Of a stretch of 64,000 nucleotides of DNA, positions 4,011 to 18,886 are shown in pieces. The stretch lies in NCBI GenBank assembly GCA_019262145.1, contig CP076745.1:865093-929092 (forward strand), given 5' to 3'. The first letter of the stretch is position 1, and each line of letters opens with the position of its first letter. Under the pieces are notes generated by a model, which was not told the DNA's origin, made no database searches, and was given only the letters and a program-made list of their open reading frames with translations. Position numbers and translations under genes: made by a program. Source of the DNA: Candidatus Methanogranum gryphiswaldense (GTDB lineage Archaea; Thermoplasmatota; Thermoplasmata; Methanomassiliicoccales; Methanomethylophilaceae).

Positions 4011-5411
4011 TCAGAGGTCGTAGTTCTTCATGTTAAAGTTGGGAACAAGTCCTGAGAACTCTTTTACAGCGTACTCAACGAATTTGCTCTCTTCCTTTGG
4101 CAATGCCTCGAACTTCTTGATGATGTCCTTGAGGGTGTCGAGCTGTTTGTTGGTGAGCGCGAGCTCTTTGGTCTCGTATCCTTTAAGGATGATCTTGGCA
4201 CCGGTAAGTCCTGCTCCAAGGGCCCTGTTGTAGAGGTGGTTACCCTCTGCTGCGATGGCCTTTCCGATCTCGTATGCATGGTCGTATGCGAGAACGTATG
4301 CCTCTGGTCCCCTGGTCCTGTCAGCGAACATGTACAGATCCCTGAGGGTCTTCTCCTGTTTCATCTGGAGTGCAGTGTTCATGAGGGCTGCTTCGTATCC
4401 GATGGATCCGAACCAGCACTGGACGGATGTTCCACCGAACTCGGGGTGGTACTCGACAGATTCGTTGGACCAAAGGTCACAGCACTGTGCGATAAGGTTT
4501 CCCTGAAGATCGCAGTGTGCGCACTGGCAGTTCTTTCCTTCCTGAGCGGTAGGCATTCCTGCTATTGCTTTTACTATGGGTCCTTCGTAACCACAGTCTT
4601 TGTCAGGTCCGATTGCACCGGACTCCCATGCTGCAAGTGTCCTTGCTGCAGAGATCGACCTTGTTACTGCGGAGAATGTTCTCTGAACATCGTTGTCCTG
4701 CATTCCGCCAGCCATGAACATAGCGACGTTTGCTCCGGAGCAGTTTGTGTCTCCTCCAGCAACGCACTTGTGTTTCTTGGCGATGTTTGCGAACTCAGAC
4801 CAGACATATGTCATGTCAACGGTTCCAAGGTATCCGACACCGAAGAGGAAAGCAACGATATCTCCATTTGTAACTGCGTAGTCTGCGAATTCTTTTCCAC
4901 CGACGGTCTCACATGAGAGGTTGTCTGCACCGTTCTCGCAAGCGATCTCGGCACATTCGAAAAGTTTCTCAGGGTATGCGTGGTTCTTGTCGTGTCCAGG
5001 CCTGAGTCCATGATCTGCCTCACGCTGGTCAGGGATTGTCTGCCTTACACCACAGTTGAGTCCATACTCCTCGTGGTATTTCTCACACATTGCTTTCTGA
5101 CCTGATACGACAGGTGCAGAGAGTTTTTCCTGGTTCATCTGTGAAACCCATTCGGTCTCAAGCTGAACGTCGGGGAATCCGACAGTGATAGCCCTGTCGA
5201 GAATGTCCTTTGTGATGTAATCGACATACTCTTTCCTGAGTTTTGCGGGGTCTTTCTCTGTTCCGGGCCTGGGTGCATAGTTGATCTCAGGGATAACTTT
5301 GCCTGCTCCGATCTTCAATCCGAATCCGTAGGAAACGGGCTTGATTGCACGTCCGAATGTCATATCGTCGGCACATGCGTATTCCATTTTTGTGAATCTC
5401 TTAACTGACAT
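4011..5411 (-). CDS. mtaB: methanol:corrinoid methyltransferase MtaB (copy 1)
   Basis: Zinc enzyme that activates methanol and passes the methyl group to the corrinoid of MtaC, the first step of methanol-dependent methanogenesis. The 466-residue sequence has the family start (KRFTKMEYACADDMTFG), a TIM-barrel body, and Cys sites fitting the zinc ligands in GGDTNCSGAN and in the NCQCAHC segment. ATG 5411 was chosen over upstream in-frame codons because it follows the mtaC1 stop by two bases and GGAGG lies 9 bases before it. It forms an operon with mtaC1. Copy 2 at 6559 has exactly the same length, so the pair arose by duplication of the whole mtaC-mtaB unit. Confidence 0.95.
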   Translation of the reverse strand: MSVKRFTKMEYACADDMTFGRAIKPVSYGFGLKIGAGKVIPEINYAPRPGTEKDPAKLRKEYVDYITKDILDRAITVGFPDVQLETEWVSQMNQEKLSAPVVSGQKAMCEKYHEEYGLNCGVRQTIPDQREADHGLRPGHDKNHAYPEKLFECAEIACENGADNLSCETVGGKEFADYAVTNGDIVAFLFGVGYLGTVDMTYVWSEFANIAKKHKCVAGGDTNCSGANVAMFMAGGMQDNDVQRTFSAVTRSISAARTLAAWESGAIGPDKDCGYEGPIVKAIAGMPTAQEGKNCQCAHCDLQGNLIAQCCDLWSNESVEYHPEFGGTSVQCWFGSIGYEAALMNTALQMKQEKTLRDLYMFADRTRGPEAYVLAYDHAYEIGKAIAAEGNHLYNRALGAGLTGAKIILKGYETKELALTNKQLDTLKDIIKKFEALPKEESKFVEYAVKEFSGLVPNFNMKNYDL

Positions 5412-5413
5412 AT

Positions 5414-6196
5414 TTACTGGCCTCCAATGATTGAGTCCCACTCTTCTCTAACTTTCTTCCAGTCGTATCCCTTGCGGATCTTCTCTGCAATTATAGGCGT
5501 CTGGGGGGCTTTCTCGGAATAAATTCCGAGGTCGTATGAGTTTGCATAATCTCTGTTGACTGCTCCACCACATCCCATGAGGGGTGTTTTCATACCTTTG
5601 TGGACGAGCATTTTTGCCTCAGCGGGGAATGCAGACATTGTTGTTGTCATAAGTGCTGTTCCGCTGGCGAAGAGTGGTTTGACTTCCACGACTTTATCAA
5701 CGAACTCTGCGACAGGGACGTCACGGCCCATGTCGATGACAGTGTATCCGGAGGATCTGACCATGACTGCTGCGATGTTCTTTCCGATGTCGTGGGGGTC
5801 TCCCTCGGCAGCGTGCATGACAACTGTTCCTTTTGTCTCCCTGCCTCCAGGGACCTGTTTCTCTGCGATTGCGATTCCGATCTCCATGGTCTTTGCGGCC
5901 ATCATGATCTCAGGCAAGTAGTAGACGTGCTCTGCGTACAGCTTTGCAACGACTTCCATACCAGCAACGAGTCCGTTGTTGATGACATCCAAGGGGTTCC
6001 TGTGTTTAAGGGCGTCCATAACTACGGGTCCGACGGTCTTGAATCTCATATAGAGTACTTCTTCTGCGACCTTCTTGAAGACCTCGTCCTTGGGCAACAT
6101 CTTTTTAGCCATTTCTTCAGGGGTTGCGATGACTTGACCTTCGACGTCATATCTCTTCACAACGACTGAGAAATCTGCTCCATTTGTGCTTAGCAT
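5414..6196 (-). CDS. mtaC: methanol-specific corrinoid protein MtaC (copy 1)
   Basis: Carries the cobalamin that accepts the methyl group from MtaB before MtaA moves it to coenzyme M. The 260-residue chain has the helical cap domain (about residues 15-105) and the B12-binding domain with the signature EGDPHDIGKN, whose His is the lower axial cobalt ligand. The frame is open further upstream, but ATG 6196 with GGAGA before it gives the normal family length. It is followed after 2 bases by mtaB1. A leader of about 75 bases carries the element CATCCAACC also found before copy 2. Confidence 0.95.
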   Translation of the reverse strand: MLSTNGADFSVVVKRYDVEGQVIATPEEMAKKMLPKDEVFKKVAEEVLYMRFKTVGPVVMDALKHRNPLDVINNGLVAGMEVVAKLYAEHVYYLPEIMMAAKTMEIGIAIAEKQVPGGRETKGTVVMHAAEGDPHDIGKNIAAVMVRSSGYTVIDMGRDVPVAEFVDKVVEVKPLFASGTALMTTTMSAFPAEAKMLVHKGMKTPLMGCGGAVNRDYANSYDLGIYSEKAPQTPIIAEKIRKGYDWKKVREEWDSIIGGQ

Positions 6197-6558
6197 GTTA
6201 ATTTCTCCAATTTGTTCAGCGTTTTCACGCTTGCAACCTAAATTTTCGGAATAATATTTAGGTGATTTTGTGGTTGGATGGGTTGTCAATGTCAAATAAT
6301 AAAAATCATTAAATACTATTGAACATAGCAAATTCCAACTGTCCATATTTGCCAATATCTTGTAATGTTTGACTATGTCAAACATTATATTATAGTGGGG
6401 GAAGAATCGAATATAAAGATTGGATTCATCCAACGGATACAGATTATTGTATTCTACCGATAGAAATGATTATAAGCACATGGCGATAAATAATTTGAAA
6501 ACTCAAAAAAAAGGAAAATAGATTAAAAAGTTTAAATCCTCAAAGAATTACTTGAACT
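6197..6558 (-). promoter_or_regulatory. mtaC: promoter and leader region of mtaC1-mtaB1
   Basis: These 362 bases hold no gene. On the minus strand they contain a TATA-like TTTTTATTATT near 6296-6306, the element CATCCAACC at 6272-6280 at the expected transcription start, and GGAGA before the start codon. Further upstream is a perfect inverted repeat at 6363-6387 with arms TAATGTTTGAC and GTCAAACATTA around TAT, and TTGGAT-TC-ATCCAA at 6420-6433. A direct TGTCAA repeat at 6284-6296 resembles half of the large repeat. Layout is seen in the sequence; control by these sites is inference. Confidence 0.5.
6363..6387. repeat. perfect 11-bp inverted repeat upstream of mtaC1
   Basis: Arms TAATGTTTGAC and GTCAAACATTA with a 3-base spacer. 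It lies about 65-85 bases upstream of the candidate mtaC1 TATA box and about 170 bases after the mtaB2 stop. It may be a regulator site or the 3' end hairpin of the mtaC2-mtaB2 transcript; no T-run follows it directly, which favours the first. Confidence 0.5.
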
Positions 6559-7959
6559 TCAGAGTCCGTAGTTCTTCTTGTGGTAGTTGGGGATAAGCTC
6601 AGAGTATTTCTTGTCGCAGTACTCGAAGAATTTGCTCTCCTCTGTGGGGAGTGCTTCGAGTTCTTTGATCATGCTCAGGAGGACATCCTTCTGCTTGTTT
6701 GTGAGGGCGAGTTCTTTCGATTCGTTGCTTGCCTTTATGATGTGGGCTGCTTCGAGACCGGCTGCTTTCGCACGGAGGTAATAGTTGTTACCTTCTTTGG
6801 TGATTGCCTCTCCGATCTTGTATGCATTGTCGTAAGCAAGGATGTGTCCCTCTGGGCCACGTGTACGGTCAGAGATCATGTACAGGTCTCTGAGGGTTTT
6901 CTCCTGGCCAGTTGCAATTGCAGTGTTCATCAAGGAAACCTCGTATCCGAGGGATCCGAGCCAGCACTGAACTGAGGTTCCACCGAATTCAGGGTGGTAC
7001 TCGACAGACTCATTGGACCACAGGTCGCAGATCTGTGCCATCAGGTTACCCTGAAGATCGCAGTGTGCGCACTGACAGTTCTTTCCTTCCTGGGCTGTGG
7101 GCTTTCCTGCGATAGATTTGCAGATAGGTCCCTCGTAACCGCAGTCCTTGTCCGGTCCTGCTGCTCCGCATTCCCAAGCAACCAATGTCCTTGCGGATGC
7201 GATTGCTCTTGTTACTGCAGAGTATGTTCTCTGAACATCGTTGTCAAGGAATCCGCCTGCCATGAACATAGAGGTGTTAGCTCCTGCACAGTTGGTATCT
7301 CCTCCAGCGACTGTCTTGTTCTTCTTTGCGATGTTGACGAACTCAGACCATACGTACTCCATATCGATGGATCCAAGGTATCCAATACCGAAGAGGAATG
7401 CAACGATATCTCCGTTGGTTGTTGCGTAGTCAGCGATTTCTTTTCCACCCATTGTTTCACAGGATAGAACATCTGCTCCGTTCTCACATGCAACATCTGC
7501 GCATCCAAAGAGGTGCTCAGGGTATGCGTGTGATCCCTTCATTCCGACTCTGAGTCCCTGCTCTGCCTCACGCTGGTCAGGTATTGTGTGCCTTACAGCG
7601 CAGTTGAGTCCGTACTCCTCGTGGAACTTCTCGCATATTGCTTTCTGTCCTTCTACGACAGGCTGTGCCATTTTTGGCTGTCCCATCTGTGAGACCCACT
7701 CGGTTTCCATCTGAACGTCAGGGAATCCGACTGTTACTGCTCTCTCGAGAACATCTTTAGAAATATAGTCGACGTATTCTTTCTTGAGCCTGGCGGCATC
7801 CTTCTCGGATCCGGGCCTTGGCGCATAGTTGAGCTCAGGGATGACCCTTCCAGCTCCGACCTTGATACCGAAACCGTACGAAACGGGTGATTTTGCGGTA
7901 CCGAAGACCATGTCATCTGCGTGTGCATATGCCATTTTTGTGTATTTTGTGCTTGCCAT
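6559..7959 (-). CDS. mtaB: methanol:corrinoid methyltransferase MtaB (copy 2)
   Basis: Second methanol methyltransferase, 466 residues, aligned without length change to copy 1. It keeps the same core blocks: ADDMVFGTAK, YAPRPGSEKD, GGDTNCAGAN, NCQCAHCDLQGN and EYHPEFGGTSVQCW. Differences cluster at the C-terminal third, for example in the region before TLRDLYM. ATG 7959 is chosen because GGAGGTG lies at the right distance and because it follows the mtaC2 stop by two bases; an ATG six bases upstream would overlap the ribosome site. In methanol-using methanogens such isozymes are expressed under different conditions; whether that holds here is inference. Confidence 0.95.
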   Translation of the reverse strand: MASTKYTKMAYAHADDMVFGTAKSPVSYGFGIKVGAGRVIPELNYAPRPGSEKDAARLKKEYVDYISKDVLERAVTVGFPDVQMETEWVSQMGQPKMAQPVVEGQKAICEKFHEEYGLNCAVRHTIPDQREAEQGLRVGMKGSHAYPEHLFGCADVACENGADVLSCETMGGKEIADYATTNGDIVAFLFGIGYLGSIDMEYVWSEFVNIAKKNKTVAGGDTNCAGANTSMFMAGGFLDNDVQRTYSAVTRAIASARTLVAWECGAAGPDKDCGYEGPICKSIAGKPTAQEGKNCQCAHCDLQGNLMAQICDLWSNESVEYHPEFGGTSVQCWLGSLGYEVSLMNTAIATGQEKTLRDLYMISDRTRGPEGHILAYDNAYKIGEAITKEGNNYYLRAKAAGLEAAHIIKASNESKELALTNKQKDVLLSMIKELEALPTEESKFFEYCDKKYSELIPNYHKKNYGL

Positions 7960-7961
7960 GA

Positions 7962-8744
7962 TCATGCACCTCCAACAATGTTTTCCCATTCAGCCCTAAT
8001 CTTCTTCCAGTCGTATCCAGCTCTAACTTTGTCTGCGATCGGTGGGGTCTGGGGTGCTTTCTCCGAGTATATTCCGAGGTCAAATGACTCTGCGAAATCT
8101 CTGTTGACTGCACCGCCGGCGGCCATGAAGGGTATGTTGATTCCATCTTTCACGAGCATTGCTGCTGCGTGGGGGAATGCTGTCATTGTTGTTGTCATGA
8201 GTGCCGTTCCAGTGACCATCATTGGCTTGGCTTTCTTGACTTCTGCGACAACATCCACAACTGCAACATCCTTACCCATGTCTATGATTGTGTATCCTGT
8301 AGACCTGAGCATGACTGCTGCAATGTTCTTTCCTATGTCGTGGGGGTCTCCCTCTGCTGCGTGCATAACGACGACTCCTTTTGTCTCTCTTCCACCTGGA
8401 ATCTGCTTCTCTGCAATTGCGATTCCGATCTCCATGGTCTTTGCGGCCATCATGATCTCGGGCAGATAGTAGATATGCTCTGCGTACAATTTTGCAACAG
8501 CTTCCATTCCAACGACGAGTCCGTCGTTGATAACAGCGAGAGGTGCTTTTGTCTTAAGGGCCTCTGTAACAGCAGGTCCGACTTCCTTGAATTTCATGTA
8601 CAAGACAGTTTCTGCAACTTTCTTGTAAACTGGATCCGAAGGAAGCATTTTCTTCGCTATGCTCTCAGGGGTTGCTTCGTTCTGGGCCCCAATGTCGTAA
8701 CGTTTGAGGATCTTTCCGTAGTCCACTCCTTTATAACTTACCAT
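7962..8744 (-). CDS. mtaC: methanol-specific corrinoid protein MtaC (copy 2)
   Basis: Corrinoid methyl carrier paired with MtaB copy 2; 260 residues, the same length as copy 1. Cap domain at about residues 15-105, then EGDPHDIGKN with the axial His and a Rossmann-like B12 domain ending in a conserved YDWKKIRAEW tail shared with copy 1. ATG 8744 lies 7 bases after GGAGG. It starts the operon mtaC2-mtaB2. The upstream leader holds a TATA box at 8852-8860 and the CATCCAACC element at 8832-8840, the same arrangement as before copy 1. Confidence 0.95.
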   Translation of the reverse strand: MVSYKGVDYGKILKRYDIGAQNEATPESIAKKMLPSDPVYKKVAETVLYMKFKEVGPAVTEALKTKAPLAVINDGLVVGMEAVAKLYAEHIYYLPEIMMAAKTMEIGIAIAEKQIPGGRETKGVVVMHAAEGDPHDIGKNIAAVMLRSTGYTIIDMGKDVAVVDVVAEVKKAKPMMVTGTALMTTTMTAFPHAAAMLVKDGINIPFMAAGGAVNRDFAESFDLGIYSEKAPQTPPIADKVRAGYDWKKIRAEWENIVGGA

Positions 8745-9047
8745 GTTTTTTCCTCCAATGTGCTCCACCGTAATGGACCGGTGTAACAGCAAATGTTCTT
8801 AAACGAGTGGTTAGTATTTAATTCATTTCGCGGTTGGATGTTATATCCACGTATTTATAAAAAAACAACAATCATTATATAGTAGTGATTAAAACTTCGT
8901 AATTTATAAGGTATTTTAGTGGATAAAAGTTACATCCATAGTAACTAGAGATTAATGTAGTTCTATAGAATTTTAGAGTCTATATTTAAGATAAAAAATA
9001 CATTCCATTGTAAAGACTAAATACGAACTCGCGGATGTACTCCCACC
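8745..9047. promoter_or_regulatory. divergent promoter region mtaC2 / cobW operon
   Basis: No gene in 303 bases. Minus strand: TATAAATAC at 8852-8860 with the expected start of transcription near 8830, giving a leader of about 86 bases to mtaC2 that begins with CATCCAACC. Plus strand: TATATTTAAGAT at 8981-8992, about 60 bases before the cobW ATG. GGAT...ATCC palindromic pairs occur at 8837-8848 and near 8922. The TATA calls are by eye. Confidence 0.5.
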
Positions 9048-12010: not shown

Positions 12011-12841
12011 TCAATTATCCATGACGTTCTCTTTTTCAAGTTCTTCAAGTATATGCTTTCTCATTGCTACAAATTCAGGATCTGCTCTATCCCGAGGCCT
12101 TGGCCAAGATGGTTCTATTATCTCTTTGATCACTGCAGGACGCTTGGTGAGCATGATGACTCTGTCGGATAAGAAAAGTGCCTCATCAACAGAATGTGTT
12201 ACGAATACTATGGTCTGTTCAGTGTTCTCAAGTATCTTCAAAAGCTGAGTCTGCATTATATTCCTTGTTTGTGCATCCAAGGCCCCAAATGGTTCATCCA
12301 TTAACGTGACCTCGGGATGATTGACAAATGCCCTCGCAATACCAACGCGCTGTTTCATTCCTCCTGAGAGTTCATGTACCCGCGCATCGACGAATTTCTC
12401 CAACCCTACTATTTTTATGTATCTCTCGGCCCTTTCATGACGCTCTTCTTTGGGAACATTTGATATTTCCAATCCGAACTCCACATTTTTCCTTACTGTT
12501 CTCCATGGGAACAGTGCGAAATCCTGGAACACCATTCCTCTATCTGGACCGGGGCCGCTACATTCCTTACCGCCGATCGTGATGGACCCTTCTGTTATCT
12601 CTAACAGACCTGCTATTGCTCTAAGGATAGTTGTCTTTCCGCATCCGGAAGGACCGACTATCGATACCAATTCTCCTTTTTTAACATCAAGTGTAAAATT
12701 ATCGATGGCCACGACTTCTTTCTCATCTGTTCTGTAAACCACCTTGAGATCTTTGATGCTCATGAGGGTCGCACCTTCCGAGATGTCTTTGTATATCCCT
12801 TCTGTGCGCTTTACTTTTACTTTCTGTGCTTCGGGATCCAT
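12011..12841 (-). CDS. ABC transporter ATP-binding protein (NitT/TauT type)
   Basis: ATPase of an importer of the nitrate/sulfonate/taurine type. In order: Walker A GPSGCGKTT, Q-loop, signature LSGGMKQRVGIARAF, Walker B VTLMDEPFGALD and switch His in FVTHSVDEAL. The chain is 276 residues; about 27 residues precede the usual start of the family (MSIKDLKVVYRT), so a shorter form beginning at that Met is possible. The ATG at 12841 shares one base with the permease stop (TAATG), which supports the longer form and translational coupling. Substrate cannot be read from this subunit. Confidence 0.9.
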   Translation of the reverse strand: MDPEAQKVKVKRTEGIYKDISEGATLMSIKDLKVVYRTDEKEVVAIDNFTLDVKKGELVSIVGPSGCGKTTILRAIAGLLEITEGSITIGGKECSGPGPDRGMVFQDFALFPWRTVRKNVEFGLEISNVPKEERHERAERYIKIVGLEKFVDARVHELSGGMKQRVGIARAFVNHPEVTLMDEPFGALDAQTRNIMQTQLLKILENTEQTIVFVTHSVDEALFLSDRVIMLTKRPAVIKEIIEPSWPRPRDRADPEFVAMRKHILEELEKENVMDN

Positions 12842-13647
12842 TAGACATCAATCCCCATTCTTTTGGAAACGAACCTGTGAATATAATCTGCAACACCTGT
12901 AGTGAGCAATCCTAGTATTGCGATCACCACGATGGCAGCGTATGCGCCTGGCCAATAACCGGCTGTGGCCTGTTCTGCAAGATAGAATCCTATCCCTCCA
13001 AGCGGGGTTGCATAAAGTTCTGCAGCCACGATACACATCCAACCTATTCCCAGACCTACTTTTATACCATTCATGATGTAAGGCACTGTGGAAGGTATTA
13101 GCACCTTCAAAAATATTTGAGATTGCGATGCGCCTAGTGTTTTTGCAGCGTCCACTAGAAGAGGGTCCATTTTTTTAACACCGAAAACAACACTCGTCAG
13201 CAATGGGAAGAATATACCTACAAAAACCACTAACATGGGGCCTATCTCATAGTTGATGGCGAGCATGAATATGGGCGCCCATGCAATTGGCGCTATTGGC
13301 CTCATTATCTCAATGATCGGATTAGCCAATTCATTCAAAACCTTGAATGTTCCAAGAACCAGTCCCAAAGGTACTGCGACGACCAATGCTAAAAGGAATC
13401 CCTTAACGAATGTTCCCATACTTGATTCAACATACGTTCTCAAGGAGATACCTGTCATGGTATCGCCGTTCTGAATCAGATCTATAAGCGCATCCAACGT
13501 CTGTACTGGGGTTGGTATGGCGGGAGTGTGGGCCAATATGGATATCTCCCACCATACTATTACAAATGCGACCAAGGAAACTACTGTTATCAATACGGTC
13601 CTTGTGAACCTGTGATATTTGTTGTGCTTGTCGTATTTGAATTCCAT
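12841..13647 (-). CDS. ABC transporter permease (NitT/TauT type)
   Basis: Inner-membrane channel subunit of 268 residues with about six hydrophobic helices. It carries the cytoplasmic EAA loop that docks to the ATPase (DAAKTLGASQSQIFLKVLIP) in the C-terminal half. It lies between the binding protein, 17 bases upstream, and the ATPase, which overlaps it by one base. All three components of one importer are therefore present and in the usual order. Confidence 0.9.
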   Translation of the reverse strand: MEFKYDKHNKYHRFTRTVLITVVSLVAFVIVWWEISILAHTPAIPTPVQTLDALIDLIQNGDTMTGISLRTYVESSMGTFVKGFLLALVVAVPLGLVLGTFKVLNELANPIIEIMRPIAPIAWAPIFMLAINYEIGPMLVVFVGIFFPLLTSVVFGVKKMDPLLVDAAKTLGASQSQIFLKVLIPSTVPYIMNGIKVGLGIGWMCIVAAELYATPLGGIGFYLAEQATAGYWPGAYAAIVVIAILGLLTTGVADYIHRFVSKRMGIDV

Positions 13648-13664: not shown

Positions 13665-14858
13665 TTATGCCTTAATAAGCTCGCTGTTGATTGTAGTGAT
13701 CGTCGCAGGCGGCGCTCCCATCAAACCAAACTGAACAGTGCGGTTCTGAAGTGCTACTGCAACACCTGCACCGTTGGTCGCCCCAGAAAGAGATATGTTT
13801 ATCCCGTATTCTGTAAAGAATCCTTGTTCAATTGCTGCGTGCAATGCGATCTGATGAAGATCTCCGGTTATGACCGCCACACCGACCGTCACTGTAGACG
13901 AGGATTTGCTTACATCATTGTTCAACACATTGGACAAATAACTGCCATCGATGAATGCGTTTGCAAAATCCGTTGAATCGGAGAATCCTAGATCTTGAAC
14001 AGTATGTTTCAAAGAACCAAGTGCTTCAAGACTATCTGTGAGTGCAGCAACATCTGCTATGAGCGATGCCAACGGTGCATCATCGTCAGCGTCCCCATAT
14101 GTGTATGTGACGGTTGCCAATGACTCTTCGATCTCTTCCTCTGTGAGTCCGACAGTTTTTGCCATACAGAGTGCAACAAGATCGGTGTATTCTGTCGAGG
14201 TCGGATCAGCCAATGCGTACTGTACCCATTCTACACCTTCCACATATGCTGCAAGGAACCTTTCTGTAACATCTGTATTGGATTTTATGTAAGACGTTGA
14301 TCCTGCAAGAACGCAACATGTGTGATCGGGAAATATATTGTTTGTAAGCGCAAGCGCTGTAAATTTGCCTGAGGTATCATCCACTATTGCTTGATATTGT
14401 GGTTGCCAAAGTATTCCGCCCTCGATTATTCCATTATTGAGGGCATTGGTGGCATTCGTTATACTGGATACGTAATAAACGTGCGTTGGATCAATATCTG
14501 TTCCTTCCTGATACAACGAGAATGTCAGGCCGAGATAGTCTTCAACAATCGTCTGAAGTTGAATGTGCTGTATTGATGTTTGTCCGGGAGTTCCGAATAT
14601 CAAACCGCCCCAGGCTACCGCGTTGGTACTATCGATCGTGTATGTATCGTCATCGTTGATAGTATAAAAGGCCGAAAGACCTCCCCTCTCATCAAGAATA
14701 CTATCTTCTATGTAGATCCCTGACCCCTCCGTATTCACTCTGGCTAGCAAAGTATATGATGAGTCTGTCTCTGTATCATTCTTAGTAAGTGCGTAGACCC
14801 CTACACTTGCTATGACAATTATTGCAACGATTGCTGCAGCAATTACTTTCTTATCCAT
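13665..14858 (-). CDS. substrate-binding protein of ABC importer, apparently circularly permuted
   Basis: Membrane-anchored solute receptor of the SsuA/TauA/NMT1 type, 397 residues. The start is set at ATG 14858 because GAGGT precedes it and the anchor KVIAAAIVAIIVIASVGV follows at once. The order of blocks is odd. After the anchor the chain begins with LLARVNTEGSG and GTPGQTSIQHIQLQ, which in this family are internal segments. The usual first segment (TVGVAVITGDL, then EQGFFTEYGI, then FGLMGAPP) is the last 76 residues. The C-terminal block ends where the N-terminal block begins in a normal member. The stop is intact and the operon is in order, so this is a working gene rather than a fragment. 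Ligand unknown. Confidence 0.8.
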   Translation of the reverse strand: MDKKVIAAAIVAIIVIASVGVYALTKNDTETDSSYTLLARVNTEGSGIYIEDSILDERGGLSAFYTINDDDTYTIDSTNAVAWGGLIFGTPGQTSIQHIQLQTIVEDYLGLTFSLYQEGTDIDPTHVYYVSSITNATNALNNGIIEGGILWQPQYQAIVDDTSGKFTALALTNNIFPDHTCCVLAGSTSYIKSNTDVTERFLAAYVEGVEWVQYALADPTSTEYTDLVALCMAKTVGLTEEEIEESLATVTYTYGDADDDAPLASLIADVAALTDSLEALGSLKHTVQDLGFSDSTDFANAFIDGSYLSNVLNNDVSKSSSTVTVGVAVITGDLHQIALHAAIEQGFFTEYGINISLSGATNGAGVAVALQNRTVQFGLMGAPPATITTINSELIKA

Positions 14859-15011
14859 TTTAGACCTCGCCATCATCCAACTACTTAAAGAATATATTAT
14901 CCTTTTGGATGTCATTTTCCTAATTAGGATAAATAATTATTATCTAATAACATCGTATTAAAGATTCTAAAGATTCCATAATTTTTAGCCTAATCAATAA
15001 CTGAAAAATAG
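14859..15011. promoter_or_regulatory. promoter region of the ABC operon with palindrome
   Basis: On the minus strand TAATATATTC (about 14889-14898) is a TATA candidate. Upstream of it is the perfect palindrome TCCTAATTAGGA at 14918-14929, followed by further TTAGGATAA/TTATCTAA arms up to about 14945 and an ATCC-TTTT-GGAT pair at 14899-14910. The clustering of TTAGGA-like sites next to a TATA box resembles a repressor or activator site; that role is inference. Confidence 0.45.
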
Positions 15012-17702: not shown

Positions 17703-18434
17703 TCAAATGTCTTGGACGACCGAAGACCTGATGTCTGTGATCTCCTTGAATCCTGTCTGCTCTTTCTTGCAAATGACACTGGCGACCGCTTCTACTTCTT
17801 CCTTCAGATAATTTGGAATCTTTTCTACAGTTCCCATTATTACCTTACGAATGCAAGCATTTACTTCTGCCATTGCCTTCTCAAGTGTCAACTCAGGCAT
17901 CTGCTCGATCATACGATCGTTTTGAAACCTGAATACGTTCATGCAAACAGCCCTCAGTGACCTAAGTCCTTCTGCCGCTGCTGTCATCCTCGACCCCTCA
18001 AACGAGAAAGGATCGATGACGATCGCGAAGGTCATAACATTCAAACGATCGCATATCTCTGCTACGACAGATGCTGCGCCCGTTCCTGTCCCTCCGCCTA
18101 GTCCAGCCACTATGAACACTGCGTCGTGTCCTACAAGTGCCTGCTTTATTTCTTCCTCATGGACCTGCGCACACTTCTTACCAAGTCTCGCATCCCCATG
18201 TGTACCTTCTCCCCTGGTAACCTCCTTACAAATGTAGATCTTCTTGTCGGCCGATGTCGAAAGAAGAGCCACTTTGTTGGTATTGACAGCTACGGTGTCC
18301 ACTGGAGCCAAAGAACAGTAAAGATCGTTCACAACGTTGCATCCAGCTCCGCCTACACCGATCACAGCAATATGCGGCTCCAAGGATATTTCCATACCCG
18401 CCTCAACCGTACTTACCATTAGTGCATCCCCCAT
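17703..18434 (-). CDS. FtsZ-like GTPase lacking the C-terminal domain
   Basis: Tubulin-superfamily protein of 238-243 residues. The GTPase half of FtsZ is complete: VIGVGGAGCNVVNDL (T1 loop), LGGGTGTGAAS (tubulin signature), DPFSFEGSRM and FRFQNDRM. FtsZ is normally 320-400 residues; here the chain stops about where helix 8 would begin. The catalytic T7 loop (NxDxxD) is represented at best by EITDIRSSV, 12 residues before the end. The downstream DNA to the terminator shows no continued frame, so no frameshift is apparent. The start is ATG 18434 or ATG 18419, the latter with GGGGGAT before it. It follows a ribbon-helix-helix gene. Polymerisation would be altered or absent. Confidence 0.85.
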   Translation of the reverse strand: MGDALMVSTVEAGMEISLEPHIAVIGVGGAGCNVVNDLYCSLAPVDTVAVNTNKVALLSTSADKKIYICKEVTRGEGTHGDARLGKKCAQVHEEEIKQALVGHDAVFIVAGLGGGTGTGAASVVAEICDRLNVMTFAIVIDPFSFEGSRMTAAAEGLRSLRAVCMNVFRFQNDRMIEQMPELTLEKAMAEVNACIRKVIMGTVEKIPNYLKEEVEAVASVICKKEQTGFKEITDIRSSVVQDI

Positions 18435-18520
18435 TTTTTTAAATCGTTTTACCGATCGTCTGGCAGGACAGCGCCTAAGCGTTCCCATCCGTCCTGTCGG
18501 ACGATCAAACTCCCATCCCT

Positions 18521-18886
18521 TCATTTGAGCTGCGAAGCCATCTGCGCTGCTTTCACGGCACGCGCAATGACGTCTTCCTGGATGCTCGCAGGGACAATGA
18601 CATCCAAGATGCATTTCCTAGCGAACTCCTCTGCGGAGATCGAGCAAGTCCCATCCATTTCGATCCCTCTGAGGATTCCAAGTTGTACGTCACTGAGGTG
18701 GACGAACATCCCGCCTCCAGTTCCCGTACCAGTCATACCTGCCTTTTTGGAGGCTATATGGCTGACTATAGCTTCACGAATGAAATCTGACCTGTTTCCT
18801 ACACCATGATCTGCCATAAAGTCTTCCATGTTCTGGATTTCCTCAGGTCCCATCCTGATCGTGATCTTGGTTCCTTCGTCGGCCAT
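18521..18886 (-). CDS. ribbon-helix-helix (CopG-type) regulator
   Basis: 121 residues. The N-terminal 45 form a ribbon-helix-helix DNA-binding domain (TKITIRMGPEEIQNMEDFM, then NRSDFIREAIVSHI). The rest is a helical domain with no motif I know, preceded by a Gly/Thr linker (GMTGTGTGGG). ATG 18886 is favoured by GGTGAT just before it; an ATG at 18892 is also in frame. The FtsZ-like gene follows after about 86 bases and is probably co-transcribed. Its own promoter is full of short inverted repeats, which suggests self-regulation. Confidence 0.85.
   Translation of the reverse strand: MADEGTKITIRMGPEEIQNMEDFMADHGVGNRSDFIREAIVSHIASKKAGMTGTGTGGGMFVHLSDVQLGILRGIEMDGTCSISAEEFARKCILDVIVPASIQEDVIARAVKAAQMASQLK

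Follow-up and report, generated by a model that had tools for sequence, protein, structure and literature searches.

An archaeal ABC-importer receptor that is very probably a natural circular permutant, and its relatives in four chain orders

The minus strand of the window, a 64,000-nucleotide stretch of the Candidatus Methanogranum gryphiswaldense genome, encodes a substrate-binding protein whose C-terminal end resembles the usual beginning of such receptors. This raises the question whether the gene is a natural circular permutant of a common receptor and, if so, how its order of parts arose. Natural circular permutations are mostly seen as single ancient end states, and their origin and neutrality have been argued from few cases. 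The reading frame runs from an ATG at 14858 to a stop at 13665-13667. A further in-frame ATG lies upstream at 14915, and the protein was taken to be 397 residues long because the alignment of its relatives begins at MDKK, i.e., at the Met at 14858. Residue numbers given below are those of the 416-aa ORF (13665-14915, minus strand) unless marked as 397-aa numbering. The sequence LLARVNTEGSG begins at 14750, directly after the membrane anchor, and the last 76 residues (13668-13895) contain TVGVAVITGDL, EQGFFTEYGI and FGLMGAPP. The first-pass annotation of this locus had read these last residues as the start of a conventional receptor and had placed the cut at residue 341. For comparison, the protein was divided into blocks A (residues 55-185), B (186-338) and C (339-416), which stand as A-B-C here and as C-A-B in conventional receptors (Table 1).

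Table 1. Features of the permuted receptor gene and its operon (positions in the window)
Feature	Position	Strand	Basis and remarks
Circularly permuted substrate-binding protein gene, order anchor-A-B-C	13665..14858	-	397 aa; sequence order, rotation scan, AF2 pLDDT 92.9
Hydrophobic membrane anchor at the N-terminus (helix 3-26, 397-aa numbering)	14781..14852	-	Model secondary structure; relatives of other orders carry a similar MDKK-type anchor
Block A, conventionally the second part of the receptor, here right after the anchor (LLARVNTEGSG...TPGQTSIQH...WQPQYQAIV)	14382..14750	-	Block HMM A match
Block B, conventionally the C-terminal part of the receptor, includes the HTCC motif	13926..14354	-	Block HMM B match
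Seam, conventional C-terminus (B) to conventional N-terminus (C): LNNDVSKSSSTV	13890..13925	-	Rotation scan optimum, residues 327-346
Block C, the beta-alpha-beta-alpha-beta unit that opens conventional receptors (TVGVAVITGDLHQ...NGAGV...GAPP), here C-terminal	13668..13889	-	Profile matches, rotation scan; model strands/helices 323-391
Site in block A opened in A2-B-C-A1 relatives (other families of the taxonomic order)	14487..14507	-	Block order; model loop between strands 112-115 and 126-130
Site between A and B opened in B-C-A relatives (DDTSGKFTA)	14355..14381	-	Seam comparison; model loop between helix 154-159 and strand 166-171
Same-operon permease, TauC/NtrB/SaoP-like	12841..13647	-	NCBIfam; follows the receptor gene in all orders
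Same-operon ATPase, SaoA/NtrCD/TauB-like	12011..12841	-	NCBIfam; usually after the permease

A profile made from conventional-order relatives (L047, L132 and L170) matched the native window protein out of order, with profile positions 84-115 and 123-338 falling on residues 42-329 and positions 10-92 on residues 336-411 (27 bits, i-E 1.9e-10). In the rotated protein, positions 4-115 and then 123-338 were matched in order, and the score was 157 bits against 142 for the native protein. All 366 rotations were taken into the scan. Scoring rotations by a single domain told little for the window protein, whose alignment is broken up by a linker insertion, and collinear chains and global alignments were used. 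The best collinear profile-chain score rose from 118 to 156 bits on rotation and was highest for a cut at residue 331 (range 327-346). The BLOSUM62 global scores against four conventional relatives rose from 279, 219, 212 and 566 to 343, 321, 307 and 750, with the best cuts at residues 344, 330, 343 and 344, respectively. Shuffled-sequence controls scored far lower, at about 15-20 ± 7. The Pfam NMT1_2 match also rose, the native order scoring 50.5 bits and the rotated one 55.6 bits in a single stretch over profile 7-239, a gain that is small by itself. The assignment of the last ~76 residues to the conventional start was confirmed by profile order and rotation scan, and the cut first proposed falls inside the optimum by global alignment (330-344) and by profile chain alike. 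The receptor lobes are made of similar beta-alpha units, so that weak cross-matches arise (secondary hits of the C profile at 3-4 bits, outgroup L199), and a linearly diverged protein of conventional order could be imagined whose end resembles a receptor start by chance or through a repeated beta-alpha motif. Such a protein is hard to reconcile with a rotation gain of 64-184 in BLOSUM62 score at one sharp optimum, or with the presence of the same blocks in all cyclic orders among close relatives at 40-57% identity. The rotation scan and the block orders of the relatives refute a chance resemblance, and ordinary linear divergence is left with next to no credibility.

The structure of the protein in its native order, which had been proposed as a check, was predicted with confidence by AlphaFold2 from 32 aligned sequences (pLDDT 92.9, pTM 0.87). 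The chain of the model runs from the anchor helix through A and B to the C-terminal part, which consists of strand 323-330, helix 334-344, strand 353-360, helix 363-371, strand 377-381 and helix 382-391 (397-aa numbering). In the model, this is the series expected of the start of lobe 1 in a conventional receptor; only the order of the elements agrees, and their placement in space is inferred. The cuts of all the chain orders found among relatives fall in loops of the model (118-124, 160-168 and 312-323) or at the present chain ends. The nearest solved structures by Foldseek were NrtA (2g29), CmpA (2i4b), Thi5 and SsuA. The match to NrtA had an E of 3e-5 and a prob of 1.00, and its TM was only 0.49 in sequential alignment, a value that would be expected of a permuted chain but is no proof of permutation. 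PF13379 (NMT1_2; cut-off 24.7 bits) was exceeded by the score given above and PF09084 (NMT1) by 33.9 bits (cut-off 20.5). By Foldseek, the protein shares the fold of the solved NMT1_2/SsuA-NrtA-type proteins, but not their conventional C-A-B order; the window gene encodes an NMT1_2/SsuA/NrtA-type type II substrate-binding protein from a permuted branch of the family. It resembles the NrtA/CmpA/SsuA/Thi5-type receptors in these Pfam and Foldseek matches and in sharing an operon with a taurine/nitrate/sulfonate-type permease and an ATPase, and it is unlike them in the circularly permuted order of its domain, in an HxCC motif conserved in its family and in its scores with ligand-specific models.

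None of the NCBIfam receptor models that name a ligand scored the window protein above its curated cut-off. With TIGR01728 (SsuA), it reached 27.7 bits, far below the cut-off of 163.5, and the conventional relative L047 was also below it at 144. Assignment to a known ligand through the SsuA, taurine, SaoX and SaoB models was not supported, all of them scoring below cut-off. The receptor should bind its ligand between the two lobes and pass it to the permease, as an ordinary Venus-flytrap protein; this function is inferred without binding data, and the ligand is unidentified. We propose that the permutation alters only the point at which the anchor is attached. The HTCC motif (14313-14324, residues 198-201) is a vicinal Cys pair after a His, and H-x-C-C is nearly invariant in all chain orders. 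A CU motif with suggested metal binding has been listed in the receptor SaoB (PMC13188914). The SaoB model did not match the window gene, and a link of the HxCC pair to that motif or to metal binding is speculative.

The order of blocks in relatives was typed by running block profiles on the ORFs of about 130 loci from the taxonomic order and then on further members of the phylum, most of the genomes being metagenome assemblies. After removal of duplicates, the distinct proteins of the phylum fell into four chain orders, namely A-B-C (~90), A2-B-C-A1 (~34), B-C-A (7) and conventional C-A-B (4). Block profiles alone gave 32 proteins of order A2-B-C-A1; two more, L194 and L196, were first typed as B-C-A because their short A2 piece was too diverged for the block model, and rotation scans brought the count to 34. 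Among the proteins typed, the A-B-C order was confined to one family of the taxonomic order (f1), apart from a copy that appears to have been transferred to bacteria, and A2-B-C-A1 extended over the remaining families of that order and into further classes of the phylum. In addition, in-frame ABCABC double receptors were present in four genomes of f1, and one double A2-B-C-A1 receptor (L048) in another family. Rotation scans of A-B-C and A2-B-C-A1 relatives gave a sharp optimum at the expected seam (L108, 218 to 330 bits; L050, 210 to 414; L046, 221 to 395). The A2-B-C-A1 members of the taxonomic order scored 186-221 bits as given and 364-414 bits when rotated, the best cut lying where C begins, and the conventional L047 scored best unrotated. 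The Pfam models, which were built by others and are independent of our own profiles, supported the permuted order of L050 when run on it unrotated, with NMT1_2 profile 151-240 matched first and NMT1 profile 29-120 at the last residues. The first-pass annotation had been right about the order, the cut point and the natural permutation, and too narrow in treating it as a single permuted gene, the real extent being a phylum-wide series with four cut points.

When a gene is reshuffled in a single genome, faulty assembly or a local rearrangement artefact is always a possible cause. The A-B-C order recurs in the ~90 distinct proteins from many independently assembled genomes, as a natural permutant should. 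Furthermore, the window genome, which is complete in one contig, encodes another A-B-C receptor, L002, which has diverged to 33% identity and has a permease of its own, and A-B-C copies stand on two bacterial contigs. The reading frame, anchor and operon were also found to be intact. Misassembly is excluded by the independent assemblies, and we regard it as having a negligible chance of explaining the gene. At loci with room for it, a permease lay directly downstream on the same strand for 117/123 A-B-C, 8/9 B-C-A, 5/5 C-A-B and 35/37 A2-B-C-A1 receptors and for all doubles (the counts include some genes under two locus numbers). The permeases at the B-C-A and C-A-B loci of f1 were 58-69% identical to that of the window. 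In nucleotide comparison, dN/dS was about 0.15-0.34 in pairs of B-C-A genes, silent sites being saturated in most other pairs. No permuted relative was found in a plasmid search.

The seams between the chain orders were compared directly. The B-C-A chain has QRVIQES as its last residues and its B block opens with SDYIS-LGLTN; the C-A-B relative L038 runs unbroken through RVIEESPDYVS-LGLTN, matching both ends. The A2-B-C-A1 chain ends in VQQG or KLKGT, where conventional L047 goes on as VQKGAETGPN-IVYW. No gap, loss, repeat or duplication was evident at the seams. The N-terminal anchor (MDKK-IIAV) is very similar in A-B-C, B-C-A and C-A-B relatives, so that, as far as the sequences tell, the anchor seems to have been kept while the domain behind it was permuted. 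The earlier proposal that a new anchor had been added in front is probably wrong.

Trees were made from sequences set into one common order and rooted with four distant conventional receptors. At least six changes of order are required by the tree. B-C-A has two origins inside the A-B-C clade (L039/L040 and L033-L037), a single B-C-A clade being rejected (AU p 1e-48), and so is a single clade of all C-A-B receptors (AU p 3e-48). Conventional-order L038 is placed inside the A-B-C clade, together with the second of the B-C-A groups (100/99), and therefore its conventional order was regained from permuted ancestors. This return is known from a single metagenome-assembled genome, about 61% complete, and the exact branching of L038, beside or inside the B-C-A clade, has only moderate support. 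For L170, L047 and L132, retention of the conventional order rather than regain was weakly rejected (AU p 0.027; long branches). The fused doubles of f1 form one clade apart from the B-C-A branches. In two of these four (L031 and L043), each half lies closest in the tree to the other half of its own protein, which suggests homogenisation or renewed duplication.

The gene is, with high confidence, read as a membrane-anchored importer receptor and a natural permutant in which C was joined to B and the chain opened between C and A, one of a group permuted repeatedly and likely by duplication and trimming. This reading rests on the observed sequence order, its conservation, the operon, the tree, the fused doubles and the confidently predicted fold. 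By the proposed route, a receptor gene would have been tandemly duplicated into an in-frame double receptor, which would then have been trimmed at new points with retention of the anchor and operon. The A-B-C order was inherited by a whole archaeal family, and in relatives the orthologous domain is opened at three other loops (the conventional one, within A, and between A and B). Fused doubles, which the duplication model predicts, are present in two separate clades. On the direct branch to A-B-C, no fused double copy was found, and among the receptors examined there were no half-trimmed intermediates or partial duplicates at either end, so that the duplication route remains inferred for each branch. 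Duplication and trimming, as suggested at the outset, has therefore gained indirect support from the doubles and none on the direct branches; we consider it the likeliest route, with reasonable confidence. The order could also have changed through gene fission with the pieces re-fused differently, or through a DNA circle that was excised and reinserted. Scarless-looking seams would be the direct product of a circular intermediate, and the order changes are unusually frequent; yet the loci examined contained no split half-genes, the fused doubles are found in two separate clades, and trimming under selection for a complete domain would also look scarless. Fission or a circular intermediate is thus rated as unlikely, and duplication with trimming is retained. 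Given at least six changes, four cut points, two origins of B-C-A and one return to the conventional order, it is conceivable, though we hold it only tentatively, that some process drives frequent permutation, be it in-frame tandem duplication with trimming that recurs at this operon or selection that shifts the attachment point of the anchor around the receptor.

Permuted binding proteins are already known. TpMglB-2 (Tp0684) of Treponema pallidum is a solved, natural circularly permuted ABC receptor of type I for sugar, described as 'Type Ic / Cluster Bc' (PMC4990184). It resembles the window receptor in being a natural, functional permutant among tethered ABC-importer receptors that is spread across its lineage, and differs in that it belongs to the type I MglB family, for which only one permuted order has been described, whereas the present series is type II and archaeal, with four orders, doubles and a return. 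The window protein is not a 'Type Ic' receptor, since it is NMT1_2/NrtA-like and type II and lacks the type I MglB-like sugar-binding fold. The authors of that work suggested that a permuted order may suit tethering (PMC4990184), an idea that also fits the present series and is untested here. DNA methyltransferases and saposin/swaposin proteins, the textbook cases, are known in several orders with duplicated intermediates (reviewed in PMC3320104). They are alike in having several orders per superfamily and in that duplicated intermediates are expected under the duplication model, and unlike in that the present series lies within one orthologous gene at one operon position in one archaeal phylum. 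In the open-access literature on permuted binding proteins, including archaeal ones, we found no report of a four-order series with doubles and a return, subscription papers being outside this scope. In a comparative genomics paper on the taxonomic order, the passages on ABC transporters do not mention permutation.

In the present series, one orthologous gene at one operon position shows four orders, two origins of B-C-A, fused doubles and a regained conventional order, so that a rare mode of protein rebuilding can be followed step by step. Its members, natural proteins at about 30-60% identity, offer a test of the duplication model, of how chain order affects folding and of what the point of membrane attachment does. 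It also bears on annotation, since linear profile models split or truncate permuted receptors.

Two contigs of rumen Rhodocyclaceae MAGs (L165:3992-6870 and L166) carry the A-B-C receptor, permease and ATPase together. Their neighbours look bacterial by eye (a TamA-like outer-membrane protein, fructose-bisphosphatase and formyl-THF deformylase; ~62% GC), which suggests that the permuted importer moved from a methanogen into a rumen betaproteobacterium with the A-B-C order kept. Elsewhere, one A-B-C receptor (L071:2249-3799, minus strand) has an extra C-terminal domain of ~88 residues, by eye carboxypeptidase-regulatory/SpaA-like beta. The window itself also holds two tandem methyltransferase and corrinoid protein gene pairs (MtaB/MtaC-like by eye), after which come genes for a CobW-like GTPase and a RamA-like activator (4011-8792), and, at 17703-18614 on the minus strand, a divergent FtsZ/tubulin-like GTPase of ~300 aa with a GGGTGTG motif (by eye).
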